A stretch of 33,736 nucleotides of DNA, taken from positions 1 to 33,736 of the forward strand of contig JACVJD010000028.1 in assembly GCA_015711825.1 (NCBI GenBank), in the 5' to 3' direction. A program made the translations under genes and the position numbers. The stretch comes from Candidatus Solincola daggyaiensis. GTDB taxonomy: Bacteria; Actinomycetota; Geothermincolia; Geothermincolales; RBG-13-55-18. The notes under the pieces are model-generated. The model was not told where the DNA came from. It ran no database searches and worked only from the letters and a program-made list of their open reading frames with translations. Positions 3,797 to 33,736 of the stretch are shown here, piece by piece (within the stretch, counting starts at the first letter, position 1; every line of letters begins with the position of its first letter).

Positions 3797-3876
3797 CTAA
3801 TCCGCCTCAGTCTTCAAAGCTCTCTTCCGGCGGGCGGTGACCCATTATTCCCCTTGCGCGAGATTAGATGTCGCAA

Positions 3877-4488
3877 TCACGGAGACTGTTCCCAGTAATC
3901 GCGCAATTCCAGGGCGAGGCGGTTGCGGGCGCGGTTAAGGCGCGATTTCACCGTTCCCAGGGAGATGTCCAGGATCTCCGCCACCTCCTTGTAATTGTAA
4001 CCGCTTATATCGTGAAGGTAGATTATCTCCTTGAACTTGTAAGGGAGTCGCGCAACGGCTTCCCTCACCGCCTTCTGCACCTCGGCCCGCTCCATGCTCG
4101 CCTCCGGTGCGTCCAGGCCGTCATCCGCCAGGCGCTGCTCCATCTCGGGAAGGTCGTCACCGGGGGATTCGGATAGGGAGATGTTGCGGCGCGACTTTCG
4201 CGCGTAGTCATGGCATGCGTTGAGCGAAACGCGGTAAAGCCAGGTGGAGAACTTTGCCTCCCCCCGGAAGGAACCCAATTTGCGCAGCAGGAGCACGAAG
4301 ACCTCCTGGCACACGTCCGCGGCATCGCTGCGGTTACCCAGCAGGCGGTAGGCCATGTTCATGACGGCCGGCTGATATCGCGTCGCCAGCTCCTCGAAGG
4401 CGGAGGCGTCACCCGCGAGGAAATCACGCACCAGTTCCTCGTCCGTGGGCCTTTCCCGTTCATTTCCGTCGCTCTCGTCAAGGGGCAT
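3877..4488 (-). CDS. ECF-type RNA polymerase sigma factor
   Basis: This 203-residue sigma-70 family protein contains only regions 2 and 4. Region 2 spans about residues 26-100, with FEELATRYQPAVMNMAYRLLG, DAADVCQEVFVLLLRKL and FSTWLYRVSLNACHDYARK. An acidic linker follows. Region 4 (about 143-195) is LPYKFKEIIYLHDISGYNYKEVAEIL with helix-turn-helix residues ISLGTVKSRLNRARNRL. The ATG follows GAAGGAAAG. An extended -10 element (TGCTAGAAT) sits about 36-44 bases upstream. The partner anti-sigma gene is directly downstream. It resembles the broad SigE/SigW-like ECF group. The regulon is unknown, and the divergently placed iorA is only a candidate target because its promoter looks like a housekeeping one. 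Confidence 0.92.
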   Translation of the reverse strand: MPLDESDGNERERPTDEELVRDFLAGDASAFEELATRYQPAVMNMAYRLLGNRSDAADVCQEVFVLLLRKLGSFRGEAKFSTWLYRVSLNACHDYARKSRRNISLSESPGDDLPEMEQRLADDGLDAPEASMERAEVQKAVREAVARLPYKFKEIIYLHDISGYNYKEVAEILDISLGTVKSRLNRARNRLALELRDYWEQSP

Positions 4489-12331: not shown

Positions 12332-14002
12332 TCAGGCCTTTCTCCCGCGGAAAGCATGCCCCAGCCGGCCGGCCAGCATCTCCCGCAGCGATTTCAGCTC
12401 CTCCATGCGCAGGGCATGGGCGACGACGAGAAACGTCGCCAGCCCTAAAGCCATGGGCAGGAGCATCTCGAGAAGATCCTTCGCCAGGCCGGCGAAGGGA
12501 AAGAGCCGGCCCACCAGGTTCAGGCCTGCATACACCACCACGGCCATGGCCGCCGAGGCGGCGAGCAACTTGGCGGCGGTGGCGGCAAGGCGGCGCCCCC
12601 CCAAAGGGCCCAGGCGCAGGCGAAGCACCGTGCCGTCTATGAGCATGGAGAACAGGTAGGCGACGCTGAACCCCAAGGCGAGGCCCCTTACTCCCATGAG
12701 GCGGAAGAAAAGCAGGTTGGCCCCGATGTTTATGGCCACCACGAAGCAATTGATGATCATGGGAGTGCGGGTGTCCTGCATGGAGTAAAAGGTCTTGGTG
12801 AACAGCATGTCTATGGAATAGGGGATCAGGCCCAGGGAGAAGAAGAAGAGCACCCCGGATAGAAGCTCGGTGTCCCCAGAGGTGAAGAAGCCGCGCTGGA
12901 GGAGAAAGCGGATGATGGGCTGGTTGAGCATGAGGTAGATGACCGCGCAGGGCACGATGATAAGAGCGGTGGAGCGGATACCGCCGTTCACGGTCTCGTT
13001 GAAGCGTTGCCGGCGGCGCAGGGCGGCATGCTCGCTCAAGGCGGGGAAGATGGCGGTGATGATGGAGACGGCGAAGATGCCGTAGGGTAGCTGGAAGAAC
13101 ATCTGCGCGTATTGGTATGAGGGCACGCCCCCGTCCACCTTTATGGCCAGCGCGAAGACGAACCAAGTGCCGATCTGCCAGAGGAGGATGTACCCGAGAA
13201 GAGGTAAGGCCAGGCGCCCGATCCTGCGAATGGCGGGGTGTTTGAGGTCGAAGGAGAAGGTATAGCGCAACCCGACGCGAAAGAGCACGGGGAGCTGCAC
13301 CAGGGCTTGCGCCACCACCCCCAGGGTGGTGCCCGTCGCCAGCACCACCAGATGCAGCCGGTTGTCGCGAGGACCTGGAAGGAAATGGAATACCACCACC
13401 GTTCCAATGACCGTCAGGTTGTTGACGATGGGCGCGAAAGCGGGGGCGGTGAAGTGCCGGTGGGCGTTCAGTATCCCGCCGAAGATGGCGCTGAGGCCGT
13501 AGAAGATGATCTGGGGTATGAAGAAACGCAGGAGGAAGGCGGCCTGGTCACGCACCACCTGGGTGGTGACGTCGCCGGCGGAATAGGATCCGAAGGCGGT
13601 CATGAGGCGTATGATCAGCGGGCTCGCTGCGATGCCCAGGGCGGTGACCGCCGCCAGGATGACCAGGGAGATGTTGGTGACCGAGCTCGCGACGTGCCAG
13701 GCCTCGTCGCGGGAGCGCGTGCTGAGGTATTCCACGAACACGGGGATGAAAAGGGAGGCGATGATGCCCCCCATCACCAGGTCATAGATCATGTTGGGCA
13801 TGGAGTTCGCGAGGTTGTAGGTGCTGGGGAGATTGGTGCTGCCGTAGCGGAGGGTGAGGCCAAGTACGTAGGCCAATCCGGCATAGCGCAGGAAGCCGGT
13901 GACGCGGCTGATGGCGGTACCTACCGCCATCACCGCCGCGTTCCTGGCGAAGGTCCGGGTTTCGTCCCTGGCGAGAAGAGGGGCTTCAGGGTCCGCGTTC
14001 AT
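12332..14002 (-). CDS. murJ: MurJ/MviN lipid II flippase
   Basis: This polytopic membrane protein of the MOP/MATE-like superfamily has 556 residues and about 14 hydrophobic segments. It flips lipid-linked peptidoglycan precursor across the cytoplasmic membrane. Typical MurJ stretches are AISRVTGFLRYAGLAYVLG near residue 31, NSMPNMIYDLVMGGIIASLFIPVFVEYL near 68, and SIDMLFTKTFYSMQDTRTPM in the second half. Its ATG overlaps the stop of the upstream secreted-protein gene by 4 bases, so translation is coupled. In mycobacteria and streptomyces MurJ likewise follows a large secreted protein. It lacks the long cytoplasmic kinase-like extension of mycobacterial MviN. Confidence 0.93.
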   Translation of the reverse strand: MNADPEAPLLARDETRTFARNAAVMAVGTAISRVTGFLRYAGLAYVLGLTLRYGSTNLPSTYNLANSMPNMIYDLVMGGIIASLFIPVFVEYLSTRSRDEAWHVASSVTNISLVILAAVTALGIAASPLIIRLMTAFGSYSAGDVTTQVVRDQAAFLLRFFIPQIIFYGLSAIFGGILNAHRHFTAPAFAPIVNNLTVIGTVVVFHFLPGPRDNRLHLVVLATGTTLGVVAQALVQLPVLFRVGLRYTFSFDLKHPAIRRIGRLALPLLGYILLWQIGTWFVFALAIKVDGGVPSYQYAQMFFQLPYGIFAVSIITAIFPALSEHAALRRRQRFNETVNGGIRSTALIIVPCAVIYLMLNQPIIRFLLQRGFFTSGDTELLSGVLFFFSLGLIPYSIDMLFTKTFYSMQDTRTPMIINCFVVAINIGANLLFFRLMGVRGLALGFSVAYLFSMLIDGTVLRLRLGPLGGRRLAATAAKLLAASAAMAVVVYAGLNLVGRLFPFAGLAKDLLEMLLPMALGLATFLVVAHALRMEELKSLREMLAGRLGHAFRGRKA

Positions 14003-16029
14003 CCGGGCGCCTTTCCTCGCGAGTGTCTGCCCCCGCGCGGCCGGCGTAGGAGGCGGCGCGAGAGCGCAGCCAAGGCCACCAGTCCGGCCACCACCGCCAG
14101 CAGGATGATGGCGAGGGTGTTGATGATGGAGGTGTTGACGGTGGTCGATGTGTCGTCGATGACCAGCTCCCCCGCTTCCAGCACTATGTCCACGATGAAA
14201 GAGCCCTTGCGGTGGGTGTTCACGTCGAAGGTGAAACGGTTCTCGCGCGGCTCGATGGTCACGGTCATGGAGCCGCCGCCGGAAAAGGTGAGCGCGGGGT
14301 TTTCGAGGCGCAGGGTGACCCCGCTGAGGGGATAATCCAGGGCGCTGTTGACATCGATGTTGAGCTTGCCCTGGGTGCTTGAAAGGGTGAAGGAGCGCTT
14401 CTGGCTTATGCTGACCCGTGAGACCTCGCCTCTCACCACCGCCTCGATGCTCGCCAGGTATGCCCGGGAGGCGGTATTGTCGCCGTCGCGCGCGAAGCGG
14501 TGGTTCTCCGCCACCAACAGGGAACGGTCGAGCGCCGTCCTGGTGGGCTGCTCCGGGGGGATGATGGCCGTGAAGTCCGCCACCAGGGATTTTTTACCCG
14601 CCAGTTCATCGAGGAAAGGCGACTCCGAATCCTCGTAGACAGGTGCCTGCAAAGCCACGTCTTCCAGGGGGAACTGGTCCGCGTTGAGCTCCGACAGGCG
14701 TCGGGTCTGCAGCCAGGGGCAAGCGTTGACGGCCCCGTAGAAGGCGTCGAGGAAATCGCGGGAAGGCGTGAAGGAAGGCGGAAAGGCCAGCACGCATGAG
14801 CGCACGGCATTGGGCCTCTCTCGCTGCAATACCGCAAACTCGGCGAAGAGGTTCTGGATTATGTGCGCATCGTCTCCCGCCGACATGCTCTCCAGATATG
14901 CATAGAGGGTCTCGTCGCATACGAAGGCCTTGAGCAGCAGCCCGTCGGAGTTCACGAAACGCACCGGCTGCGCGAGGGTGGTCCCCTCCATAAGCCGGCG
15001 GCCCGCGGCGCTGGAGCGCACCTCCTCGGCTCCCACCACCGCGAAGCCCACCCCTTCCTCTACCAACCGTCCCAGGGTGCCGTCGCTCAGGCGAAATGCG
15101 GGCGACACGAATCCCCCCGCGGCCGCCCCCGTCTTTCCGGCGGCCTCGATGCCTTTGCTCAACTGGCGGGATAAGTCATCTTCCCAACCCCTCGAGGCCA
15201 GCAGATCCAGATCGGCGAAGGAATAAGGGGAGGCGAGGAAGTCGACACGGTTCTCGCCGGCCAGGAGGGCGAGGTCGGCAAGGGCTGAAGCCGCCCCGGA
15301 CTGGTGCGGCTGGGCATCGGCTTGGGTTGATGAGAGGTTCTCCAGCTCCTCGTAGGTGCTTCCGGGTATGACCAGGCTGGTGCTGACGGAGGAGAACTTC
15401 TTGAGCGCCTTGGTCAGGGCATAAATGTAGCCGACATCGCTTTCGGAGGCGGAGCAAGCGGCGGCCAGAGCGCCGTCAAGGGCGTTTCCCTGCGCGTCGG
15501 CGGGGGGGAGAAAATCAAAGGTCCAGAGAAGGGAGAGGTTCAAGGGGTAACCGGCGGCAGGGTCCATGATCACCAGGAAATTGGAGTCCGAGGCGACGGT
15601 ATCACCCCCGCCGGACACCCTGACCTCGAAAGGGTAAACCCCCGGCGGCAGCCCCATGGTCGCGAGGTCGAGCACGTACATCTTGTCGGTCCAGCCGTCC
15701 TCGCGGCTTATGGTCTCGAGATCCCTCCATACTATGGGCTTGCGGCGAGTGCCGCTTCGGAAGGCGGCCAGAGAGGAGCGCGTGGTCGCGGAGGGGTAAA
15801 TGAGCAATTCAAGATAAAGGGTCTCCTCCCTGTCGCCTTCCGGCAGCTCGAGACGCAGGTCCAGGTAGGCTTGTGCTCCCGGCTGGTAGTAAAAGGAATT
15901 CATGCGCGCGGTGACTTTGGTAGCCGGCTCTTGGGCGAGGGAGCCCGTGCCGGCCGCGTGAAGCATGCCCAGGAGGAGCGCGGTGAGCGCAGCTGCCAGG
16001 AGCGCGCCTTTCAGCGCCGGGCCCCTCAC
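13999..16029 (-). CDS. Large secreted, membrane-anchored protein upstream of murJ (DUF6049/Rv3909-like)
   Basis: This is a 676-residue exported protein. The start is GTG at 16029, whose last bases form the TGA stop of the GNAT gene (GTGA overlap); the longer open frame upstream is only a shadow of GNAT. A signal peptide covers residues 1-30 (GALLAAALTALLLGMLHAAG). A large beta-rich, then alpha/beta exterior follows. A C-terminal helix at about 638-660 (IINTLAIILLAVVAGLVALAAL) and an Arg-rich tail anchor it. Topology and position match actinobacterial DUF6049 proteins such as Rv3909 and SCO3894, next to MurJ. I cannot verify homology without a search. The middle region, with LAFPPSFTPSRDFLDAFYG, suggests a polysaccharide-deacetylase/GH57-like barrel. 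A role in cell-wall assembly with MurJ is inferred from position. Confidence 0.72.
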   Translation of the reverse strand: MRGPALKGALLAAALTALLLGMLHAAGTGSLAQEPATKVTARMNSFYYQPGAQAYLDLRLELPEGDREETLYLELLIYPSATTRSSLAAFRSGTRRKPIVWRDLETISREDGWTDKMYVLDLATMGLPPGVYPFEVRVSGGGDTVASDSNFLVIMDPAAGYPLNLSLLWTFDFLPPADAQGNALDGALAAACSASESDVGYIYALTKALKKFSSVSTSLVIPGSTYEELENLSSTQADAQPHQSGAASALADLALLAGENRVDFLASPYSFADLDLLASRGWEDDLSRQLSKGIEAAGKTGAAAGGFVSPAFRLSDGTLGRLVEEGVGFAVVGAEEVRSSAAGRRLMEGTTLAQPVRFVNSDGLLLKAFVCDETLYAYLESMSAGDDAHIIQNLFAEFAVLQRERPNAVRSCVLAFPPSFTPSRDFLDAFYGAVNACPWLQTRRLSELNADQFPLEDVALQAPVYEDSESPFLDELAGKKSLVADFTAIIPPEQPTRTALDRSLLVAENHRFARDGDNTASRAYLASIEAVVRGEVSRVSISQKRSFTLSSTQGKLNIDVNSALDYPLSGVTLRLENPALTFSGGGSMTVTIEPRENRFTFDVNTHRKGSFIVDIVLEAGELVIDDTSTTVNTSIINTLAIILLAVVAGLVALAALSRRLLRRPRGGRHSRGKAPG

Positions 16030-16925
16030 CGGCCCCACCCCATGCTGTCCGGCTTGCGGCTCATGATCAGGCGGCGTTCCGGTATCTCCTCGAAGCCCAG
16101 CTTGCGATAAAGGGATCTCGCCGCCCCGTTTTCCTCCTGGGTGTTGACGCATATCACCCCCGCGCCCATGGCGCTCAGGGAATCGATGAGGCGGCGGGAA
16201 AGGGCCTCCCCGATCCCTTTGCCCTGGCAAGCGTCTCTTACCCCCAGTCGCTGCAGGTATCCGAAGCGTCCGTTGGTTCCCCCGATGGCGTATCCGGCGA
16301 GGCGACCGTTCTCCCTTGCCAGGAGAAAGAGGTTTCGCGAGCAAGAGGAGGCCACCGCGTCCAGAGTACGCGCGTCGAGCCTCCAAAAAGCGTCGAACGC
16401 ACCGGCATCAAGCTCCAGGACTTCCTCCCGGTGGCGTTTCCGGAAGCGGATGAACTCCACCCCTTTGACGCCATGGGGTTCCCCGTCCGGAGGTCGCGAC
16501 CTTCTTTCCAGCAGAACGATGCGGTAGAGCGGCATGAAACCCCAGGCGGCGAATTCCTCCGCCTCCCCCTCGCCGAGAGGCCTGGTGACGAAAAGGGCGA
16601 CTCCGCCTTGGAAGCTCCTCACGGCGGCCTCGCGCACCAGGGCTCTCCGCGCCTCTCCGTGTCCCTTCAGGTACCATAATGCCGTGACGTCGCCGTGGCT
16701 TCTCCAGTTCCCAACCAGCACGAAGTGGGACGTAGATCGACCGGTGCCCCGGAGGCTGTATATGCGTCCACCGCAAGAGCGCATGAATTCCAGATAATGC
16801 TGCTTGTTACGGAAGAAGTAACTCCTCTTGACCTCGAGCCAGAAGGACTTGAAGCTCTCGGGGGGGACCTCCTCTATGCCCTCGGCGTCGTAGCGCATAT
16901 CGACAGGGTCTATTATCGGGACCAC
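16026..16925 (-). CDS. GNAT-family N-acetyltransferase with an extra N-terminal half
   Basis: This protein is about 299 residues. The C-terminal half (about 150-290) is a GNAT domain, with acetyl-CoA-binding motif A LGVRDACQGKGIGEALSRRLID and motif B VNTQEENGAARSLYRKLGFEE. The N-terminal half (RSYFFRNKQHYLEFMRSCGGRIY, ALWYLKGHGEA) may be a degenerate second GNAT fold, as in tandem GNATs, but lacks a clear motif A. The GTG at 16925 is the best start, with AAAGGAA directly before it. This is not firm: the spacing is short, and a later ATG at DMRYDAEG is possible. It begins 23 bases after the TauE-like gene and overlaps the next gene by 4 bases. The substrate is unknown. Confidence 0.75.
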   Translation of the reverse strand: MVPIIDPVDMRYDAEGIEEVPPESFKSFWLEVKRSYFFRNKQHYLEFMRSCGGRIYSLRGTGRSTSHFVLVGNWRSHGDVTALWYLKGHGEARRALVREAAVRSFQGGVALFVTRPLGEGEAEEFAAWGFMPLYRIVLLERRSRPPDGEPHGVKGVEFIRFRKRHREEVLELDAGAFDAFWRLDARTLDAVASSCSRNLFLLARENGRLAGYAIGGTNGRFGYLQRLGVRDACQGKGIGEALSRRLIDSLSAMGAGVICVNTQEENGAARSLYRKLGFEEIPERRLIMSRKPDSMGWGR

Positions 16926-23399: not shown

Positions 23400-23870
23400 C
23401 TAGCTTCCCGGCAAGGGAGTGAGAAAGAAGGCGCAGAGTGCCGCGGAGAGGGAGAGAAAGGCCGCGTAGGGAAGGGTTTTCGAGGCGGCTCTTGCGTCGC
23501 TCTCCGGCGTTCCGTGACGCGGCAGGCGGCGGGAGACGATGAGCAAGCCCCCCGCGACGCCCGCCGCCGAGGCTCCCAGAAAGAAAGCCGGCCAGAGCAT
23601 GGAAGGACCTGTGAGCAGGCCGATCACGGCCAGAGCCTTTACGTCTCCCCCTCCCACGACGCGCAGGGAATACGCCGGCAGCAGCACCATGAAACCGAGT
23701 AGCATCCCCCACAGGCCTCGGCCCAGGACCCGCAAGCCGTTGCAGGCCAGCACGACACTTCCGCCTGCCAGAAAGGCGAGGACGAGCGCGTTGGGGACTC
23801 TGCGGTAACGCAGGTCATAATAGCTCACCGCAGCGGCGAAAGCCGAAAGCGCAAGAGCCCTGAACATCAT
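23400..23870 (-). CDS. tadV: Prepilin peptidase (TadV/CpaA, A24 family)
   Basis: This aspartic membrane peptidase processes Flp prepilin in the cytoplasmic membrane. It has about 156 residues and roughly five to six helices. Both catalytic aspartates are present, in SYYDLRYRRVPNALVL near the N-terminus and in RVVGGGDVKALAVIGLL (the GxGD motif). The short form lacks the methyltransferase domain of PilD, as usual for Tad systems. GTG, ATG, ATG occur in tandem at 23873-23865 with GGCGAGG just before them, so the exact start may shift by one codon. It ends the tad cluster, 111 bases after flp and behind a GC hairpin. Confidence 0.88.
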   Translation of the reverse strand: MMFRALALSAFAAAVSYYDLRYRRVPNALVLAFLAGGSVVLACNGLRVLGRGLWGMLLGFMVLLPAYSLRVVGGGDVKALAVIGLLTGPSMLWPAFFLGASAAGVAGGLLIVSRRLPRHGTPESDARAASKTLPYAAFLSLSAALCAFFLTPLPGS

Positions 23871-23941
23871 CACCTCGCCATCTCACCTTCTCTTACCCGT
23901 ACTCGACAAACCCCGACGGCGGAGCTTTCTCCACCAAGCGC

Positions 23942-24254: not shown

Positions 24255-25112
24255 CTACATGGCGTTTCCCAGGATGATCCCGCCGACGGTCAACAACATG
24301 AAGGAGGGCAGGATCATGAACACGAGCGGGAAGAGGATGTAGATGGATATCCTGGCCGCGCGCACCCTTTCGCGCTCCCGCCTGGCGTTTCTGAACTCCA
24401 CCGCCAGCTCCTCCAAGATATCGGCAATGGGGGCGCCGCCCTCATCCGCCCTAAGCAGGGTGCGGCAGAAGCGGCGCATCTCGCTGCCGGGATGAGAGGC
24501 GGCTCGGCGCAGGGCTTCCGAGACGCTTTCCCCCAGCTTTATGCGCTCCACGATCCTTTGCATCGCCGCGCGTGTAGAGGGGTGGCCGCAAGCCCGCAAA
24601 GCATGTTCCAGGGCGGCATGGAGGCCCTCGCCCGCGAAGCAGAGTACAGCCATGAGATCGACCATCTCGGGAAGGTCGTTGGCCAGCTCCTCCCTGCGCC
24701 TGCGCGCTTGCCGCTTGAGGACCAACACCGGCGCGTGATATGCGGCCGCGGAGAGGAGGGGGCAGAGAAGAAGACATGCGGAGCCCAGGGGAAGCGCAAG
24801 AACCACGCAGGCCAGGGTCAAGGCGAGGCGGAGTCCCCTCAGAAAAGAAGGAGTCCAGGCGCTTCCCGATTCTTCAAGCAAATCCGCGGCACCGCCTCCC
24901 GCCTTTTCCGGGAACGCTTCGCCCAATAGCGTGATGGCCCGCCGCGCAGAAGAGAGCAATCCGTGTCGGGAGCGCGTTTTCTCCCTATCATCCTCGCCTT
25001 CTTCGATCCCCAGCAAGGTCAGGGCCTTGAAACGCCTACGGAGACCCTGAAGAAAGTGAAGGCATAGCGACAGCACCGAAAACGCCGCAAGAGCCGTTAT
25101 GAAAAACTCCAT
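24255..25112 (-). CDS. tadC: TadC, Tad pilus inner-membrane platform protein
   Basis: This 285-residue type II secretion F-domain protein has N-terminal and central helices (about 1-20, 95-125) and a C-terminal pair (about 245-283). The cytoplasmic T2SF domain shows LANDLPEMVDLMAVLCFAGEGLHAALEHA and LGESVSEALRRAASHPGSEMRRFCRTLLRADEGGAPIADILEELA. TadC forms with TadB the membrane platform on which TadA works. The ATG directly follows the tadB TAG stop, so translation is coupled. Confidence 0.9.
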   Translation of the reverse strand: MEFFITALAAFSVLSLCLHFLQGLRRRFKALTLLGIEEGEDDREKTRSRHGLLSSARRAITLLGEAFPEKAGGGAADLLEESGSAWTPSFLRGLRLALTLACVVLALPLGSACLLLCPLLSAAAYHAPVLVLKRQARRRREELANDLPEMVDLMAVLCFAGEGLHAALEHALRACGHPSTRAAMQRIVERIKLGESVSEALRRAASHPGSEMRRFCRTLLRADEGGAPIADILEELAVEFRNARRERERVRAARISIYILFPLVFMILPSFMLLTVGGIILGNAM

Positions 25113-25976
25113 CTACACCCCCTGGTTGACCATTTTGCGGATAATCAGGAAAGCCCCTGCGTTGAGTGCCACCGCCACCGCCGCCATGAGGTTCCCGGCT
25201 GGGGTAGAGAGCAACGGGCGCAGGGAGCGAGGATTGAGCACCCCCTGCAGAGCCACGAAAGCGAGGGGCAGCGAGGCGACGAGGTAGCCTGAAGCGCGGC
25301 TTTGCGAGGTGAGCATGCGCGTCTCCCTTTTCACCTCCAAACCTTCTTGCACCCGCCCGCGCAGGCGGTCGAGGATGCGGGGAAGGTCTCCCCCCTTGCC
25401 GTGCAGCAGGGCGAGTATGGTGAAGGACAGGCGGAGGGACGGGGAGGGAGCGCGCTCGGCGGCGCGCGCGAGCGATTCCTCCAATCCCGCGCCCAAGCCG
25501 ACGTCTCGCACCACCAGCGTCACCTCCGCGGCGATCTCCGACCCCACGTCTTCGCGGCTCGTTTCCAAGGCCTGCAGGAGCGATAAACCCGAACGCAGCG
25601 ACTGGTTGAGGGAGTCTATCAATTCCAGTGTCTGCTCCTCTAAGGCCATGAGCGACCTGGCGCTCTTACGGCTTTTCGCGAGGCGGCGGGCGGCCGCGTA
25701 CGCGGGCCACGAAGAGGCGGCGAGAAAGGGATTGTGGGTGATCAGCAATATCATCGCTGACGCAGAGACCAGCAACGCCGCCCTCCCGCGCCGCGAACCG
25801 GATATAGAGGCCAGGCGCCGGAAGTGGGTGCGCAGAGAGCTCAAAGAGAGCCTGGCGGGTTCTCCTCCGCCGAAAAGGAGTCCTCGCGCCCTCTCTTTCC
25901 TGCGGGCTTTACGCCACATGCAGAGAGCGACGACGGCCACGGCTGAAAGGGAGAAGGAGATGATAAGGCCGCTCAT
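25113..25976 (-). CDS. tadB: TadB, Tad pilus inner-membrane platform protein
   Basis: This 287-residue paralogue of TadC has membrane helices near residues 3-20, 65-95 and 240-283, and a cytoplasmic T2SF domain with LELIDSLNQSLRSGLSLLQALETS and LSFTILALLHGKGGDLPRILDRLRGRVQEGLEVKRE. The ATG overlaps the stop of tadA by four bases. Order and coupling tadA-tadB-tadC are the standard Tad arrangement. Confidence 0.9.
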   Translation of the reverse strand: MSGLIISFSLSAVAVVALCMWRKARRKERARGLLFGGGEPARLSLSSLRTHFRRLASISGSRRGRAALLVSASAMILLITHNPFLAASSWPAYAAARRLAKSRKSARSLMALEEQTLELIDSLNQSLRSGLSLLQALETSREDVGSEIAAEVTLVVRDVGLGAGLEESLARAAERAPSPSLRLSFTILALLHGKGGDLPRILDRLRGRVQEGLEVKRETRMLTSQSRASGYLVASLPLAFVALQGVLNPRSLRPLLSTPAGNLMAAVAVALNAGAFLIIRKMVNQGV

Positions 25977-27343
25977 GGGCGCGGCGCCACCTCCTCCACT
26001 TGCGCCTCGAAACGCGGTGGCGAGGCGGATTCCGTGATCCAGGGCCTGCTGCGGCGCGCGGTTGGCCGCTCCACGCCGCTTTCACCTTGACAATGCTCAA
26101 CGGCGGGAAGCGCGGGAGGGGATGGGGGCCATGCGTCGACCCGCCGTCCGCCGTCTCTTTGTCTCCCGCGCGCTTGCACCAGGTTCGTTTCCGGTCCGCC
26201 TTCGGCATCGGCAGCGGCGAAGACGCGGCGTAAGCAGGGCCGTGAACGGTGGTCGCGATCCATATACGCGACCTCCACCACACGCCGTTCCCCCGCGGCG
26301 CCGCGCTCCATGTGCACCATAACCTCCACGGCCTGGGCGATCTGCTCCCTGACCGCATGCGCGGGCAGGCCTACCCCTGCGGTAAGGGCCATGGTCTCCA
26401 GCCTCGAGAGCGCATCCACGGGGGAGTTGGCGTGAACGGTGGTCAGAGATCCGCGGTGGCCGGTGTTGAGAGCTTGCAAGAGGTCGAGCGCCTCGGCTCC
26501 GCGGACCTCCCCGATGATGATGCGGTCAGGCCGCATGCGCAGGGCGTTGCGAAGAAGGTCCCGCAGCGTGACCTCCCCCTTACCCTCGAGGTTGGGAGGC
26601 CGCGTTTCCAGGGGGATGACATGTGGTTGCTGCAGTCGCAGCTCGGCCGCGTCCTCCAGGGTGATGACGCGTTCATCGCGGCCTATGCGGGAAGAGAGGG
26701 CGTTGAGAAGGGTGGTCTTGCCCGTGCCGGTTCCTCCCGAGATGACCACGTTTTTCCGCTCCTCCACTGCCCGGGACAAGAACTCCGCCTGCTCAAAGGT
26801 CATAGCGCCGGTATCCACCAGTTCCTCCATGGTGAAGGGTCGGCGGCGGAACTTGCGTATGGTCAGCACGGGGCCCAGTAGCGACAGGGGAGGAAGCACC
26901 ACGTTCACCCGGGAACCGTCGGGTAGGCGGGCGTCGACGTACGGGGAGGCCTCGTCCACGTGCAGGCCAAGCGGCCCGATGATGCGGTCGATAATGCGGT
27001 AAACCTCCTGTTCCCCTTCCAGGATCACCTCCGAGGGTTGGATGCGCCCATCCCTTTCCACATATACGCACCGGGGCCCGTTGACCATGATCTCGGTGAT
27101 GGACTCGTCGCGCATGAGGGGCTCAAGGGGCCCGAGGCCCAGGACGTCGTCGATGAGCCGGGCAAGGAGGGCCTGCATCTCGGCTGCTTCGAGCACCAGC
27201 CCTTCCTCCCACGCCGCCTCGCGCGCCGCGCGCAACAATGCCTTCCTCAAGCCGTTGCTGCCATGATGGGAAAGAGGGGACAAATCGCCCGTGGGAAGCC
27301 GTTCCTTTACCCTCTCTTTCAACAAGGAATACATCTCTCTCAT
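25973..27343 (-). CDS. tadA: TadA/CpaF secretion ATPase of the Tad pilus
   Basis: This GspE/VirB11-type ATPase powers pilus assembly. From the ATG at 27343 it has 456 residues. The N-terminal domain includes LGLGPLEPLMRDESITEIMVNGP (68-90). Walker A ISGGTGTGKTT is at 201-211. The Asp box (VITLEDAAELRLQQPHVIPLETR), Walker B (RIIIGEVRGAEALDLLQALNTGH) and HRGSLTTVHANSPVDAL follow. An ATG two codons earlier is possible. GGGGGGAT serves as ribosome binding site for the chosen start. The final 80 residues or so are Pro/Arg/Gly-rich and non-conserved in appearance. It is preceded by a 306-bp gap after cpaE. Confidence 0.92.
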   Translation of the reverse strand: MREMYSLLKERVKERLPTGDLSPLSHHGSNGLRKALLRAAREAAWEEGLVLEAAEMQALLARLIDDVLGLGPLEPLMRDESITEIMVNGPRCVYVERDGRIQPSEVILEGEQEVYRIIDRIIGPLGLHVDEASPYVDARLPDGSRVNVVLPPLSLLGPVLTIRKFRRRPFTMEELVDTGAMTFEQAEFLSRAVEERKNVVISGGTGTGKTTLLNALSSRIGRDERVITLEDAAELRLQQPHVIPLETRPPNLEGKGEVTLRDLLRNALRMRPDRIIIGEVRGAEALDLLQALNTGHRGSLTTVHANSPVDALSRLETMALTAGVGLPAHAVREQIAQAVEVMVHMERGAAGERRVVEVAYMDRDHRSRPCLRRVFAAADAEGGPETNLVQARGRQRDGGRRVDAWPPSPPALPAVEHCQGESGVERPTARRSRPWITESASPPRFEAQVEEVAPRP

Positions 27344-27649
27344 ATCCATCCCCCCGGAACACTCATCGGACAAATATCCTCGCGTGGAACAAAAGCACGC
27401 CACCTATTGCCATCTCGCGGGGATCTTTCTGTCTCGGGAGTCTCCCGTATCTCCGTCCCCCGCATTGCTTAGTTGCTCGATGGCTTCGTTTAAACGGTCC
27501 CTTTACGCCGGTCGGTGAACAGTGGTTACCCGTTCCGCTGCAGCATGTTCTCAAGGGCTTCGTTTCAAAACGGTCGCCTTTCACGGCCTGGGCCTCGGGG
27601 ACATGCGCGGGGTTCCCGTATCGCTTTGCGCGGTATCGCCCATGGGCGT
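27344..27649. other. cpaE-tadA gap with an imperfect direct repeat
   Basis: GGCTTCGTTTAAACGGTC (27482) and GGCTTCGTTTCAAAACGGTC (27556) recur 74 bases apart. Each is centred on a CGTTT/AAACG inverted repeat, and both continue into CCTTTACG or CGCCTTTCACG. On the minus strand these could fold into small hairpins in the tad mRNA. A 96-codon minus-strand frame (27653-27363) fits the gap and overlaps the cpaE stop, but its basic, repetitive product and irregular codon use argue against a protein. Confidence 0.45.
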
Positions 27650-28930
27650 TCACCCCATGTTGAAAAAGTCCGTTCTACCCGGTATTTCCTTATCGCCCCC
27701 GGTCCTGGCTCCAAGCTTGTTTTTTCGCCGCCTGCCGAGCATTCCCAAGCGCGCATGGATGCCTGCTCCGCTTGAAGCCGGCGGGGCAAGTCCCAAGGTG
27801 CAGGCAAGGGAAACGGCGGCCCTCCCCACCTCCGATTCGGGGCGAGGCAGCTCTCCGAGTTCGCGGAAATCGAGGCCGGAGCGCATGTCGTCGGGGAAGA
27901 CAGCGGCTATCTGCAAGCCGGTGGCGCGACCCAGTTCCTCTATGCCCAGGGTGTGATTGCCGCCGTTTCGATTGACCAGCAACCGCATGCGTGACGCCTC
28001 CATGCCGATACGACGCATGAACTCGGCGGCATCCCTCGCGCACGCCGCGGAAAGGACGTCGGGGAGGGTAACCAGCATGACCTGGGGTAGTAAAGGCACG
28101 GTAAGAGATAGCTCCCCACCCCAGGGACTCTGCAGGTCTACGACCACTAGGTCGAAAAGAAAAAGCAGGTTGCGAAGGAGCGGCATTATGCTGCGGGTCA
28201 TATTGGAAGCGTCCTTATCATAGCCGCGTCCCGAAGGAAGGAGGTAAAAGCCGGAGGGATGCTTATAAAGAGATATACGCAGGAGGTCCCAGGATATGTC
28301 CTCCGCCAGAGGCGCCAGTTCTGCAAATGTCTTTCCATCAAGTGAAGGTTTAATATTTGACAATTGAGACCGGAACCCCCCCATCTCCATAAGCAGCACC
28401 CTTTTATCCATTGCTGCGGCAGCAGCGAAAGAGCAGGATATAAAGGTATTTCCAACTCCACCTTTACAGCCCGTGAAGATAAGGAAATCTGTTTGAGAGA
28501 CTCTTGATGTCCTTTGCCTAGGGGAACTGAATACCGCATTATTATAAACATCTACTTTAGCTTTAATATATTGATAGACGCCGTCTATTTCCCGCGTTTC
28601 CCTCTCCAGGGCCCCACCTACTCGCAGGGGAAGATGCATGATCCTCACCAACTCAACCCCATCGGCCCCTTCCCCTTCACTCAGCAGCATCAAAGTGACG
28701 GGCGAGCTTAAGAGCGGGGACGACCCCTCGGGTATTCCCTCATGAACCATCTCCTCAAGGAGATAAGGGGAGGCGATGAGGAGAGGGGGTTTGAAGCGGG
28801 ACAATAGCCTGAGCAGGTCGGGAACGGAGCGTGCGACTCCGCATATATCCATGGACGGGTGTGCCTCCATGGAGGAGATTATGTCCGGAAAATCCTCGCC
28901 CGCACTTAAGGCCACCGCCGTCGTGATCAT
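27650..28930 (-). CDS. tadZ: CpaE/TadZ-like pilus localisation protein
   Basis: This 426-residue protein has an atypical receiver-like N-terminal domain (about 1-110), a linker, and a ParA/MinD-type ATPase domain (about 148-390). The P-loop at 156-163 is KGGVGNTF: the signature Lys is kept, but the usual GKT Lys is Asn. P-loop variation is known in the CpaE/TadZ family and suggests altered ATP hydrolysis. LFDLVVVDLQSP is the Walker B strand. TadZ marks the polar site of Tad pilus assembly. The ATG has an ideal AGGAGGTGATGACGCG site. The linker and P-loop region is coded by AT-rich DNA unlike the rest. It is first in the tad cluster. Confidence 0.85.
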   Translation of the reverse strand: MITTAVALSAGEDFPDIISSMEAHPSMDICGVARSVPDLLRLLSRFKPPLLIASPYLLEEMVHEGIPEGSSPLLSSPVTLMLLSEGEGADGVELVRIMHLPLRVGGALERETREIDGVYQYIKAKVDVYNNAVFSSPRQRTSRVSQTDFLIFTGCKGGVGNTFISCSFAAAAAMDKRVLLMEMGGFRSQLSNIKPSLDGKTFAELAPLAEDISWDLLRISLYKHPSGFYLLPSGRGYDKDASNMTRSIMPLLRNLLFLFDLVVVDLQSPWGGELSLTVPLLPQVMLVTLPDVLSAACARDAAEFMRRIGMEASRMRLLVNRNGGNHTLGIEELGRATGLQIAAVFPDDMRSGLDFRELGELPRPESEVGRAAVSLACTLGLAPPASSGAGIHARLGMLGRRRKNKLGARTGGDKEIPGRTDFFNMG

Positions 28931-28953
28931 CGCGTCATCACCTCCTATTGATA

Positions 28954-28982
28954 AACATATTATATTATATATAGTTTGTCAA
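28954..28982 (-). promoter_or_regulatory. Promoter of the tad pilus cluster
   Basis: On the minus strand TTGACA (28982-28977) is followed 17 bases later by TATGTT (28959-28954). The spacer is an AT-rich run that contains TATAAT. Transcription would start near 28947, right before the AGGAGG of cpaE. This AT island stands out in GC-rich surroundings. Confidence 0.65.
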
Positions 28983-29211: not shown

Positions 29212-29961
29212 ATGCGCAGGAAGCGCGCCTTGCGACGGTCGGCCGTGCCCTCGTCGTTTTTACTGCTTGCGTTGGCCTCGATTACCTTGGTTGCCTTGGG
29301 GTGCGGTGGCCAGGGCAAGGCGGTGGAAAACGCCGGCGAGATGACCATAGAGGAGCTGTGGGCCAGAGCGCAGGAGGCCGATTCGGAGATCCGGTCCTGG
29401 CACATGGAGATCGCCAGCTATTACGAGAACACGCAGTACGGAAGCGGCCAGATACAGAGCATCATCATGGAAGTGAGCGGCGACGACGTGCACGAGCAGG
29501 ATCTGCTTCTGGGCCAGGTCTACTCCGAGTACATGCGCGTGGGGGGAAGGCAGTACAACAAGAACATGGCCAACGGAGCATGGGAAGAAGTGCCTGCCGA
29601 GGCCGGATCGAACTCGGCAAAGGAATATTCCTCCCAGTTCCTGGAACTACCTTCGCTGGCGGAGTCCCAAGCGCATCTGGGCCAGGAGGAGGTCGGGGGC
29701 TCGAAGGCGGAGCACTTCCGTTTCACCCTCGCTCCCGAGGCGGTAAAGGCCATGTTCGCCGGCCGCCCATCCTTCGATTTCAGCCAGAACAAGGGCGGGG
29801 AGGTGGAGGTGTGGATCGACAGCGACGAGTTCTACCTCCTGCGCTACGAGATAATCATCCGCAACGTCATCATCCCGGAGAAGATCGGCAACGGCGATAT
29901 AAGGTTCGTGGTGAATATCAGCCGTGTCAACGAGACCATAGAGATCAATCCGCCCATCTGA
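29212..29961 (+). CDS. Lipoprotein, LppX/LolA-like (copy 1)
   Basis: This 249-residue exported protein has a basic N-terminus (MRRKRALRRS), a hydrophobic signal and a lipobox ending in GC (LVALGCGG). The mature part shows IEELWARAQEADSEIRSWHMEIASYYEN, then a series of beta-strands with VGGRQYNKN, GGEVEVWIDSDEFYLLRYE and a final INPPI. This half-barrel pattern resembles LppX/LprG (PF07161) and LolA-type lipid-binding lipoproteins of actinobacteria (inference from layout). The ATG at 29212 follows GAGAGG. An upstream GTG at 29197 is possible. The third gene along, at 31705, is a clear paralogue. Confidence 0.8.
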   Translation: MRRKRALRRSAVPSSFLLLALASITLVALGCGGQGKAVENAGEMTIEELWARAQEADSEIRSWHMEIASYYENTQYGSGQIQSIIMEVSGDDVHEQDLLLGQVYSEYMRVGGRQYNKNMANGAWEEVPAEAGSNSAKEYSSQFLELPSLAESQAHLGQEEVGGSKAEHFRFTLAPEAVKAMFAGRPSFDFSQNKGGEVEVWIDSDEFYLLRYEIIIRNVIIPEKIGNGDIRFVVNISRVNETIEINPPI

Positions 29962-30156
29962 AAGCGCGCTTCACGCGCATCGTGGTCACGCACGACGGGA
30001 TGGCCGAAAGGGTAAACGCCGGCGATGGCAAAGATGACTTTCATGGAAGACGGCATACGTAAAGATTTTACCGCTTATGGTAATACATCCCTGAATAGCC
30101 TCAAGGCGTTCAACCCTCCCACGCGGGCGTCCTTACCACCCGGAGGTTGAGGCCCC

Positions 30157-31305
30157 GTGGCTGCCCGGCGTTCCCTCATCATGGTGGCTGCGGGAGCGGC
30201 TTGCGTTATCGCTCTCGCCGTGATTTTGACGGTATGGCTGCATTCCCCAGGCGGGCGCATCGCGATAGGAGAAGGGGACTGGCCCATGCCGGGGGGAGGC
30301 CCCGCCCACCTCTCCTATCTTCCCCTGGCTCCCGGAGGCCAGTTGAAGGAACGGTGGAGCACCAGGCTGGAGAGCGAACCCGTCGGCCCCCCAGCGATGG
30401 CGGCGGGGCGGGCCTACGTCGCTTGTGAAGACGGATATCTTTATTGCCTGGACCTGGAAACGGGGCGCCCTTTCTGGAGACATGACGCGGGAGCGAGCAT
30501 AACCTCCATGCCCGCGGTTTATGACCGGGGAATACTATTGGCCACCTCGGACGGCAGGGTCCGGAGCCTTTCGCCCGGTGGAGAGCTTGCATGGGAGGCG
30601 GAGGTCGGCGGCTCCGTATCCTCGACCCCCATCCCGGACGGGGGAAAGGTGTTTTTCGGGTCCGCGGACGGTTACCTCTACTGCCTCGACGCGGCAAGCG
30701 GCGAGATGCGCTGGTCCTTCCGTGCCGAGGGTCCGGTTGAGGTATCGCCCTGCCTGTACCAAGGGCAGGTTTTCGGGGTCTCGTACGAGGGCGATCTTTT
30801 TGCCCTGGATGCGGTCACCGGTCGCCTGGTATGGACCTTCCAGTCGCACGCCATACCCGTGACCTGTCCCGTCGCGGACGAGGGAAGGGTCTTTATCGCC
30901 GCCGAGCTCGAGGCCTACTGCCTTGACGCCCAGAGCGGGAAGCTCCTATGGAAGTACGCAACCGGGCCCACAGTGATATCAAACCTGGCGCTGAGAGGAA
31001 CTCAGTTGACCATGGTGATCGGTGGCGAGGGGTTGGTATCGAGCACGCTCGCCCTGGATGCCAGGACGGGGGACAGGATGTGGAGCGTCGCCTCCGGCGA
31101 AACCTCATCCCATACTCTGCTCTACGCCTCCAATAAGGATGTTTATCTCTGCGCCAGAGATCAACTCATGGCGCTATCCGCAGAATCGGGTGTCCCAAGC
31201 TTTGAGGTCGAGTTGCCGGATGCCATACCGCATACCCTGGCTATGACGGAGGAACTGGTTCTGGTCGGGACTGGAAACCGCAAGGTCTATTGCTACGCGG
31301 AGTAG
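30157..31305 (+). CDS. Membrane-anchored PQQ-type beta-propeller protein
   Basis: This 382-residue protein has an N-terminal anchor (about 7-28, LIMVAAGAACVIALAVILTVWL) and then repeated propeller blades, each carrying a variant of the YCLD-x2-TG-x3-W signature: GYLYCLDLETGRPFW, GYLYCLDAASGEMRW, GDLFALDAVTGRLVW, AYCLDAQSGKLLW and LALDARTGDRMW. Such PQQ-like/BamB-like proteins act as interaction platforms outside the membrane, and most bind no PQQ. The start is GTG after CCCGGAGGTTGAGGCCCC. It sits between two paralogous lipoproteins on the same strand, with gaps of 195 and 399 bases. Confidence 0.85.
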   Translation: MAARRSLIMVAAGAACVIALAVILTVWLHSPGGRIAIGEGDWPMPGGGPAHLSYLPLAPGGQLKERWSTRLESEPVGPPAMAAGRAYVACEDGYLYCLDLETGRPFWRHDAGASITSMPAVYDRGILLATSDGRVRSLSPGGELAWEAEVGGSVSSTPIPDGGKVFFGSADGYLYCLDAASGEMRWSFRAEGPVEVSPCLYQGQVFGVSYEGDLFALDAVTGRLVWTFQSHAIPVTCPVADEGRVFIAAELEAYCLDAQSGKLLWKYATGPTVISNLALRGTQLTMVIGGEGLVSSTLALDARTGDRMWSVASGETSSHTLLYASNKDVYLCARDQLMALSAESGVPSFEVELPDAIPHTLAMTEELVLVGTGNRKVYCYAE

Positions 31306-31704
31306 AATACTCATCCTGAAAGGCTTTTCCACGGCGTCAACAACGTGGCACCTCCCAGCTGAGAGGCATGGTGGGGAGTCGAGGAGACGCCAGGTCGCGG
31401 GCGCGAAAGTGCATGATGGGAGTGGCGGAACGGCGCAGCATGTTTACGGCTTGATGCCGAAGAGCAATCGCCCAGGTCCCACCGGGCCACGGTTCATGTC
31501 TATCCAGGCGAGGCGGGAGGGAGCGAGGACGAAGGATCGCATGGCATAAGAACCGCGTGTGGCGGGCTGGGTGGCCGGCCGACGGGGAAAGGCCTTTTTG
31601 CGGCAAAGGGTAAAGCCGGGAAGCAGGCCGCCGATAAGGGAAAAGAAAAACCTGGAGTGAAAGCGGTAAAGAGGATGAAAAAGAAAGACGAAGGGGTGAG
31701 GTTG
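31306..31704. other. 399-bp intergenic region with possible degraded coding remnants
   Basis: On the minus strand a 32-codon frame (start near 31542, product starting MRSFVLAPSRLAWIDMN) and, after a frame change, a second frame with MLRRSATPIMHF and RARDLASPRLPTMPLSW have GC-rich third positions like real genes. They may be two pieces of a decayed gene or repeat. I cannot identify it. The promoter for the second lipoprotein should also be here but none is clear. Confidence 0.3.
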
Positions 31705-32421
31705 ATGAGAAAAAGGCGGCTTAGGATCAGGATCCCGTTGGCCGTGCTTTTGGCCGTTTCCTGCCTGCTTTTCCTTGTTGCGGGCTGCGGCAAGGGCGAG
31801 CCCGGCGTGCAGGAACTGTGGGACAAGAGCGAGACGGCGGAGCAGAACATCAGCTCGCTGCATATGGAGGTCGCCATATATTACCAGAACACGAAATTCG
31901 GTGGAGGACAGATCCAAACTACCTCCATCGACGTCAGCGGCAATAACGTGCATTCCACCAGCGCCATCTTCGGCCAGAGCTTCAGCGAGGTCGTGGTGGT
32001 GGGCGGCAAGCAATACGGTCGCTTCGCCGGCAGCGAGAATTGGCAGGAGCAGCCGGTGACCATGAGTGGCCGCACGGCCACGGAACAGCTGGAGGGGTTT
32101 TCGCGCCTGCCGGAGACCGCGTCCTCCTCGCAGAACCTCGGCCTGGAGAAGATAAACGGCGTTGACGCATATCACCTGTCTTTCACCCTTTCGCCCAACG
32201 AGGTCTCCTCCCTCTTCAAGAACGTGCGTTCGGAGCAGCTCGCCTCCAACACCGGGGGCAAGGTCGATGTATGGGTGGAGAAGGAAAGCGGCTACCGGGT
32301 CAAGTACGAGGCGGTGGTCAGCAACGCCTTGATAACGGACCAGATAGGGTATGGCGACATACGCATCGTCACCATCCTGACCAACATCAACCAGCCCATT
32401 TCGATCACCCCGCCGGTTTAA
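31705..32421 (+). CDS. Lipoprotein, LppX/LolA-like (copy 2)
   Basis: This 238-residue protein is a paralogue of the lipoprotein at 29212. Shared stretches are ELWDKSETAEQNISSLHMEVAIYYQNTKFGGGQIQ, a VGGKQY strand, NTGGKVDVWVEKESGYRVKYE, and the ends IGYGDIRIVTI and ITPPV. The lipobox is canonical (LVAGC). The ATG at 31705 follows GGGGTGAGG. The C-terminal strand pattern is that of LppX/LolA-type lipid carriers (inference). An imperfect hairpin at 32425-32443 and a strong terminator at 32585 follow. Confidence 0.8.
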   Translation: MRKRRLRIRIPLAVLLAVSCLLFLVAGCGKGEPGVQELWDKSETAEQNISSLHMEVAIYYQNTKFGGGQIQTTSIDVSGNNVHSTSAIFGQSFSEVVVVGGKQYGRFAGSENWQEQPVTMSGRTATEQLEGFSRLPETASSSQNLGLEKINGVDAYHLSFTLSPNEVSSLFKNVRSEQLASNTGGKVDVWVEKESGYRVKYEAVVSNALITDQIGYGDIRIVTILTNINQPISITPPV

Positions 32422-32829: not shown

Positions 32830-32845
32830 GTTACATACATGTAAC
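32830..32845. promoter_or_regulatory. Operator-like palindrome
   Basis: GTTACAT and ATGTAAC flank a two-base centre: a perfect 7+2+7 dyad. A further TGTTAC half-site lies 4 bases after it, at 32850. This is the form of sites bound by dimeric TetR- or GntR-type repressors. No such regulator is coded in the window. Confidence 0.5.
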
Positions 32846-33410
32846 GGAATTGTTACGATTTTTTCAAAAATCACCCTCCGGTGTGAAAAAATCAACCTAT
32901 ATGATCGATATATTAATCATCCTGTGGAGCCCAGCGGAGAATGCGCTGGGTACATGCACTTCGGCAGGGAAGGGAAGCATGGATGGCCCGATACGGGCGC
33001 TTGAGGGAGTGAACGCGATAGGGGTTATGGGATAAGAGCGCAACGAGAAAGAGCCCTGGATGGATACGAGGAAAAGAGAGGCCGCAATGGTGAAAGCAGG
33101 GCCGGCTCCCGATTTCGGCACGAGCTGTTATGCATTGCCCGCACGGAATATCGCGTATGGTCGCCATGCGAACCCACCATATCTACCGCTAAATGATGAT
33201 CAAAATCTCAGCCCGTCTTTCCTGAAGTCTTCGCCTTTCGATACGTTGCTTTTCCGTGGAGGCTATCGCCTCCTCTCTTACTGCGTGTTGTTCAAGGGGC
33301 CTGCGCCAAAAGAAGCAATGGGCAAGTTAAAAAGCAAGTTCCTCGATAACCGTTCTGTTCGTGGCGACGGCACCATTGGCTATACGGATCCGGAATCGAC
33401 CAGGCATGTC

Positions 33411-33470: not shown

Positions 33471-33572
33471 ACGATGGCCGGGCGGAGAAATGCTTTCGCT
33501 TTGGCTAGCGTGGTGTAAATGCGCATGAAAGCATCAAGCACCTATGGGAGAAAAGACTAGGGGGAGATGGAG

Positions 33573-33736
33573 ATGCTGCTCAGCAGGAACGTCCAGAAGG
33601 CCGTGAACCTTATAGTGGTGGTCATGCTGGTGGGGCTGATCGCCGCCGGGGGGATAATGGCTTTACCCGCCAGAAGCCCCATGGGGCCAATGTTGGGAAA
33701 ACTCTTCAATTCCAAGGATATCCTGGTCAACTTCAT
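33573..33736 (+). CDS. N-terminus of an unidentified membrane protein (cut by the window)
   Basis: The first 54 codons are present. The sequence begins MLLSRNVQKAVNLIVVVMLV, giving a short basic N-terminus and one membrane helix (residues 12-31), then LPARSPMGPMLGKLFNSKDILVNF. The ATG at 33573 (or 33567, two codons earlier) follows AGGGGGAG. Codon use has returned to the GC-rich type of real genes. The fragment is too short to name. Confidence 0.7.
   Translation, partial: MLLSRNVQKAVNLIVVVMLVGLIAAGGIMALPARSPMGPMLGKLFNSKDILVNF

Follow-up and report, generated by a model that had tools for sequence, protein, structure and literature searches.

A conserved propeller, lipoprotein and giant-solenoid gene set beside the Tad pilus locus of Candidatus Geothermincolaceae

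The window analysed here is the whole contig JACVJD010000028.1 (G000:C27), 33,736 nucleotides of the 2.996-Mb, 95% complete genome of Candidatus Solincola daggyaiensis. By taxonomy its relatives are Ca. Geothermincolia, family Ca. Geothermincolaceae, and include Ca. Solincola tengchongensis and Ca. S. sediminis; they belong to the Actinomycetota, the phylum presumed in a preliminary description made from the sequence. Close to one end of the window, a single strand carries the gene of a beta-propeller between the genes of two lipoproteins, Lpp1 and Lpp2, followed by an operator-like element and the start of a very long gene, C6, whose product belongs to a family of giant repeat proteins. The features are:

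29197 (GTG) or 29212 (ATG) to 29961, forward strand: Lpp1, putative LprG/LppX-like lipoprotein, lipobox cysteine codon at 29302
30157 to 31305, forward strand: PQQ_2-type beta-propeller, N-terminally membrane-anchored, eight blades (type from PQQ_2, blades counted by eye)
31705 to 32421, forward strand: Lpp2, lipoprotein with predicted LprG fold, lipobox cysteine codon at 31786 (the longest frame begins at 31657, but the ATG at 31705 is the likelier start)
32830 to 32856, strand unassigned, between Lpp2 and C6: three GTNAC boxes with an 11-bp period, an MtrA-box-like operator
33567 to 33736, forward strand: giant alpha-solenoid gene C6, start only (first 56 codons, cut by the contig end)

The lipoproteins and the propeller lie where the preliminary description had placed them, and the two lipoproteins are paralogues, as it had claimed (E 2e-65, with 37% identity over 251 columns); the genome contains no match beyond these two. 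What it had overlooked is that the cassette continues into the giant solenoid gene and is set on a Tad pilus locus. The linkage was followed in the 15 genomes of the family (f1), the presence of tadZ being the criterion for the choice of loci. TadZ was detected in 13 genomes; because the other two (78% and 62% complete) gave no match, and the locus of G009 lies with its tadZ at the end of a 3.9-kb contig, 12 loci were readable. The propeller, Lpp2 and C6 follow each other in the same order in 11 of the 12. From the remaining locus (G012, 89% complete, locus on one contig), all three are missing, and the Tad genes, Lpp1 and then a gene for a B-box-like membrane protein are retained; the best propeller match elsewhere in this genome is weak (E 5e-12). 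Lpp1 is optional, being present in seven readable loci and absent from five, those of g4 and g5, and therefore the flanking lipoprotein pair is not the conserved unit. The unit that is conserved consists of the propeller, Lpp2 and the giant solenoid, so that the lipoprotein–propeller–lipoprotein arrangement is one version of a larger unit.

A comparison with two genomes of the same genus yielded ratios of nonsynonymous to synonymous substitution (dN/dS) of 0.21-0.27 for Lpp1, 0.14-0.19 for the propeller and 0.14-0.15 for Lpp2; thus, with values of 0.14-0.27, the three are real genes under purifying selection. It should be noted that the script used for calling open reading frames misses genes that lie under shadow frames. 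Lpp1 of G007 was taken from other searches, and cpaF was left uncalled in G006 and G010, and was recovered in G010 by a separate search. Overlapping frames in the window, for example 29301-30062 (forward) and 31444-32175 (reverse), were set aside as high-GC shadow frames.

The propeller is a membrane-anchored protein of the PQQ type, as had been described. It matches PQQ_2 (PF13360) with 152.6 bits, at a gathering score of 27.6, and Beta-prop_ACSF4 with 170.6 bits, which is over the cut-off, and a single N-terminal hydrophobic segment, the anchor, is found in 8/8 aligned propeller sequences. Eight blades, with the ring closed by the N-terminal strand, can be read from the sequence by eye. The proposed likeness to BamB (YfgL) holds for the propeller type, the tethering to the membrane and a probable role as scaffold, but BamB membership had to be rejected at 129.1 bits with TIGR03300 (cut-off 285.2). 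In addition, the window protein is tethered by its N-terminal hydrophobic anchor, and no BamA-type partner was found: Omp85 (PF01103) was detected in 0/30 class genomes, including this one, and in 7/14 in the control. The latter result agrees with the earlier supposition that a classical outer membrane is probably lacking.

For the lipoproteins, the reading as LppX-like is weak by sequence and strong by predicted fold. Lpp2 reaches 17.7 bits with PF07161 (LppX_LprAFG), under the gathering score of 24, and Lpp1 has no match to it and none to any other Pfam family. Of 24 aligned relatives, PF07161 is matched by 12 (E<=0.01, best 1.7e-6) and DUF6612 by 13 (best 4.7e-8). The SCO4651 lipoprotein family was rejected (23.2 and 21.5 bits for the window lipoproteins, cut-off 65); LolA was not among the Pfam matches of either lipoprotein at E<=1, and their sequence profiles retrieved nothing meaningful from the PDB (E 0.36 or worse). 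Rv3212 membership was also rejected for the cassette (35.5 bits, cut-off 150). The lipobox cysteine is present in 15 of the 16 f1 rows of an alignment (A1) that includes both window proteins, and the remaining row begins at a contig end. In the tree, a branch supported at 100/99 separates Lpp1 from the rest, and Lpp2 is not a single clade (two changes). The alignments (A1 and A2) and the tree omit Lpp2 of G011, which is broken by N, Lpp1 of G001 and G002, a third copy in G003 (C33) and a fragment in G014 (C131).

A structure model of Lpp2, built from 14 sequences, has a mean predicted local distance difference test (pLDDT) value of 89.7. Its best Foldseek match is LprG (3mh8, E 3.1e-11), and in VIA it aligns with LprG 3mh9 (Z 16.5, root-mean-square deviation 4.1, 182 residues aligned), LprF 4qa8 (Z 15.9, 3.6, 178) and LppX 2byo (Z 14.8, 3.6, 167). 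The model thus clearly gives Lpp2 the LprG/LppX fold across the whole mature protein, and Lpp1 is assigned as LprG/LppX-like by homology to Lpp2. The LolA-like part of the earlier wording is a second-tier fold match: a Bacteroides LolA-type protein follows at Z 12.6, RseB at 10.8 and other LolA proteins at up to 9.8. LolA, LolB and RseB thus have a related fold at lower Z (about 7-12.6) and are not the best match; LolA is a soluble carrier, whereas the window proteins carry lipoboxes. LprG and LppX proteins are chiefly known for their part in the lipid traffic of the mycobacterial envelope. The window proteins share with LprG, LprF and LppX the modelled fold, the lipobox and the phylum, but they differ in sequence (13-16% identity) and in context, as the cassette lacks a transporter and contains a propeller and a giant solenoid.

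The window holds only the beginning of the giant protein; the family profile matches positions 33573-33734 with 81.1 bits. At the end of contig C32, the same genome carries the C-terminal coding part of a giant gene (L120:7221-9179), which probably belongs to the gene begun in the window, split as repeats break assemblies. Eleven giant genes are present at the locus in f1; two (L044, L051) can be read to the stop codon without N, and the remaining nine run into a contig end or a stretch of N. Intact relatives have 1532 residues (L044:2140-6738, reverse) and 1261 residues (L051 and L062; L062:11448-15230, forward). One N-terminal hydrophobic segment (7/7 proteins) is followed by units of mostly 23 residues with the consensus LDPxVIAxxVNxNxxFLxxLIGx. 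For residues 1-420 of the L062 protein, a structure model predicts a regular stack of helix pairs, with a mean pLDDT of 68.1, values of 77-87 per 10-residue block over residues 81-290 and values <50 at both ends. In the PDB this model matches only solenoids that are designed or of a general ARM/HEAT-like kind (Foldseek E 1.5e-4 at best, VIA Z no higher than 8.3); for repeats, such matches may reflect no more than a common arrangement. Thus, the predicted short helix-pair stack resembles ARM/HEAT-type alpha-solenoids such as importin-alpha and designed repeat proteins, with weak matches, but C6 differs in its 23-residue unit and its N-terminal membrane anchor.

Of the Pfam models, MgtE_N alone was over the cut-off in each of the two giant proteins examined; HTH_69 and Chap-C narrowly exceeded theirs in one of them, and none of their helical-repeat-type matches had an individually significant stretch; no NCBIfam model exceeded its cut-off for three proteins of the family. 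A seven-row profile detected the solenoid family in 30/31 class genomes, the miss being a 62% complete genome (G008). In a wider sample of 149 genomes of the phylum, searched at E<=1e-10, it was found in 13, all of them members of the class, and in 0/136 genomes outside it; this sample comprised Actinomycetota only.

Most readable giant genes of f1 have an MtrA-box-like element upstream. The three-box site of the window had 0 matches in 100 shuffles of the window. Exactly one such site occurs in 9/15 f1 genomes, and all nine lie upstream of a giant-repeat gene: eight are in the lpp2-C6 gap, and that of G012 is about 250 bp away from the tandem C6 cluster that it precedes. Among the f1 genomes without it, a two-box form precedes the giant gene in G005 and G013 and is absent from G011. 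The two-box form was found in 13 of 23 scanned sources, each time upstream of a C6-family gene, including the tandem clusters L116, L117 and L122. The possibility that the GTNAC pattern is unique to the group was rejected, as 32 of the 149 phylum genomes, six of them class members, contain at least one match. For Streptomyces coelicolor, MtrA direct repeats of 5-6 nt separated by five nt are described (PMC5650626); the window site contains the corresponding box arrangement, GTNAC N6 GTNAC. It resembles the MtrA sites of Streptomyces and Mycobacterium in this spacing and differs in having three boxes. MtrA-like regulators were matched in 15/15 f1 genomes, with 0/15 over the NF040689 cut-off of 300 (best in this genome 260.8 bits), and because the model also matches 12/14 control genomes (1/14 over the cut-off), these matches lend weak support. 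The long leader that precedes the giant gene matched no listed Rfam family, and there were no Rfam matches in the window or in eight named loci.

The divergent neighbour of the cassette is a Tad (type IVc) pilus locus. Its membership in the Tad/Flp group is indicated by a CpaF ATPase, two T2SSF proteins, a prepilin peptidase and a TadZ-like ATPase, and priA lies beyond the prepilin peptidase gene:

27650 to 28930, reverse strand: TadZ/CpaE-like ATPase, named by context (CbiA 22.1 bits, under the cut-off of 25.4)
25973 to 27403, reverse strand: CpaF/TadA ATPase (PF00437, 205.1 bits)
25113 to 25976, reverse strand: TadB-like T2SSF protein (PF00482, 48 bits)
24255 to 25112, reverse strand: TadC-like T2SSF protein (PF00482, 76.7 bits)
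23400 to 23873, reverse strand: prepilin peptidase, TadV-like (PF01478, 63.6 bits)

The set of tadZ, cpaF, tadB, tadC and prepilin peptidase was confirmed in the window, L044, L051 and L053. In G002, cpaF apparently has its N-terminal coding stretch repeated in tandem with a spacing of 150 bp (L044:12545-12845, forward; tblastn pieces). The AT-rich spacer between tadZ and lpp1 contains promoter-like sites on both strands (28948-28982, 10/12 matches each); overall, the scan for promoters and terminators was uninformative (four promoter-like sites versus 2.3 expected, one terminator-like site versus 4.2). Further away on the reverse strand lie an ECF (extracytoplasmic function) sigma factor gene followed by the gene of a zf-HC2 protein of anti-sigma type (2462-4488), and a DUF6049 protein gene (13999-16386) with the gene of a MurJ-type lipid II flippase directly after it (12332-14002).

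Giant genes are also found away from the locus, as clusters of three tandem genes for proteins of about 800-1000 residues (L117, L119, L121 with the third gene cut, L122, L123 and L152). The f1 clusters are close to a gene that by eye is MurA-like. In two other families (f4, G019; f7, G030) both an ECF sigma gene and Tad genes adjoin a tandem giant cluster; in f6 (G023) an ECF sigma gene adjoins the cluster and the Tad genes are about 10 kb off; and in G024 of f4 a sigma factor adjoins the cluster and the next 19 kb contain weak CpaF-type matches (32-33% identity) and no match to TadZ, TadB or TadC. The coordinates of these triplets, of proteins with a Cys-rich (B-box-like) N-terminus and a hydrophobic C-terminal part, which recur beside giant-repeat genes in f1, f4 and f7, and of LppX-like lipoproteins in f4 and f6 are:

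L119:4041-12701, L123:3545-12251, L117:4560-13428 and L122:5297-13441: tandem giant triplets, those of L119 and L123 adjoining Tad genes and an ECF sigma gene
L120:4390-6066 (reverse), L053:10659-12101 (forward), L119:2234-3898 (reverse) and L123:12360-13490 (forward): B-box-like protein
L147:4935-5723 (reverse), L149:4449-5237 (reverse) and L151:8916-9731 (reverse): LppX-like lipoproteins, similarly placed near DnaB-like and alpha/beta-hydrolase-like genes (by eye)

The first giant protein of L119 and L123 has an extra N-terminal region that, by eye, is possibly anti-sigma-like. Between the end of the giant gene and the B-box gene of Ca. S. daggyaiensis lies a gene for a 297-residue protein with a possible lipobox (L120:6367-7260, reverse), which has no Pfam or NCBIfam matches.

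Taken together, the genes may form a cell-envelope module of Ca. Geothermincolaceae in which the solenoid has Lpp2 and the propeller as envelope partners or assembly factors; of the readings considered this is the most likely, and we give it a probability of roughly 0.4. Export and membrane tethering are predicted for the propeller, Lpp2 and the giant solenoid alike. The solenoid would be a long protein of structural or adhesive function at the outer side of the membrane and the propeller a protein–protein scaffold for it, while Lpp2, and Lpp1 where present, would bind a lipid or another hydrophobic ligand in the LprG-type fold. Lpp2 might thereby help to place the solenoid in the envelope, or couple it to membrane lipid, and the module may act with the Tad pilus, to judge from its position. 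To go from fold to ligand, or from linkage to interaction, is an inference in both cases. A bolder version, in which giant anchored solenoids of dozens of repeats, encoded beside Tad genes or in tandem triplets and switched by an MtrA-type regulator, are assembled or loaded with lipid by a propeller and an LprG-fold lipoprotein, is a doubtful, if conceivable, extension. Among the papers listed by searches of one open-access library, we found no description of such an apparatus.

Several other explanations have to be weighed. Lpp1 and Lpp2 could extract a lipid from the cytoplasmic membrane and hand it on like LprG, with the propeller as scaffold. The LprG entries matched by Lpp2 include forms with bound phosphatidylinositol mannoside and triacylglycerol, LprG binds triacylglycerol and transfers it between membranes (PMC4709180), and the strands of Lpp2 show a one-faced hydrophobicity contrast that is weakly above shuffled sequences (65/2000 shuffles reach it). 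However, the same source has mycobacterial LprG acting with Rv1410, a protein of the major facilitator superfamily, whereas the cassette has no transporter. The sole lipid transporter among the subset of contig frames scanned is MurJ, about 15 kb away, and the lack of Omp85 matches suggests that there is no acceptor outer membrane. As there is no evident partner transporter and no evident acceptor membrane, lipid transfer is considered unlikely and is placed below the partner model. The complex for trafficking of lipids or lipoproteins that the preliminary description had envisaged is thus not supported, the propeller also scoring under the BamB cut-off; lipid trafficking by the lipoproteins, judged from the modelled fold, is possible. 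Alternatively, the propeller and the lipoproteins could be accessories of the Tad pilus that replace pilotin- or alignment-type proteins where an outer membrane is lacking, the solenoid being a pilus-linked adhesin or guide. In the 12 readable loci, which were chosen by tadZ, the cassette lies divergently next to that gene, and giant genes are near Tad genes in f4, f6 and f7; both observations are consistent with this. Yet G012 has the Tad genes without the propeller, Lpp2 or a giant gene at the locus, the 19 kb adjoining the G024 cluster lack the Tad matches mentioned above, and the tandem clusters of f1 are located away from the Tad genes, so that this explanation, too, is improbable.

Signalling is still less likely: proteins of LprG/RseB-type folds would sense lipid or misfolded proteins and report to envelope-stress regulation. 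RseB/MucB is among the fold matches (Z 9.2-10.8), the operator resembles MtrA boxes and ECF sigma genes adjoin the giant clusters in f4, f6 and f7, but LprG, LprF and LppX score clearly higher (Z 14.8-16.5), and the cassette contains no anti-sigma or kinase gene. It is equally hard to favour a neutral neighbourhood of unrelated envelope genes held together by slow rearrangement. The gene order from priA to the B-box gene is conserved where contigs reach, as such slow rearrangement would predict, but the joint absence of the propeller, Lpp2 and the giant gene from G012 argues otherwise, as does the retention of the order at genus-level divergence (identity outside the genus of 49-61% for Lpp2 and 38-46% for TadZ).

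Nevertheless, a number of observations weigh against the envelope-module reading. Because f1 preserves the gene order throughout the region wherever contigs reach, adjacency alone is moderate evidence and may reflect shared ancestry, and the long intergenic gaps in the window (195, about 400 and 1145 bp) make co-transcription uncertain. The exact three-box site is missing in 6/15 f1 genomes, the pattern also occurs in 26/136 genomes outside the class, and the class matches in G016 (C120) and G019 (C9) are not beside giant-gene frames in the 2-3 kb stretches read. The possibility that LppX-like proteins track giant genes throughout the class was rejected, since in the three f4/f6 genomes read their neighbour is a DnaB-like gene (so named by eye) and not a giant gene, and the solenoid model is moderately confident at its mean pLDDT. 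Conserved linkage, which the preliminary description had set as a check, is found for the propeller, Lpp2 and C6.

The solenoid is a nearly universal family of the class, without a convincing Pfam or NCBIfam match among the members scanned. If the bolder version is true, the LprG fold would be used outside mycobacterial-type envelopes, as the partner of a giant surface protein and not as a transporter-coupled lipid shuttle. The occurrence of the fold in a class without detected Omp85, together with a propeller and a giant solenoid beside a pilus locus, offers a concrete system for asking what role this fold has where there is no mycobacterial outer membrane.

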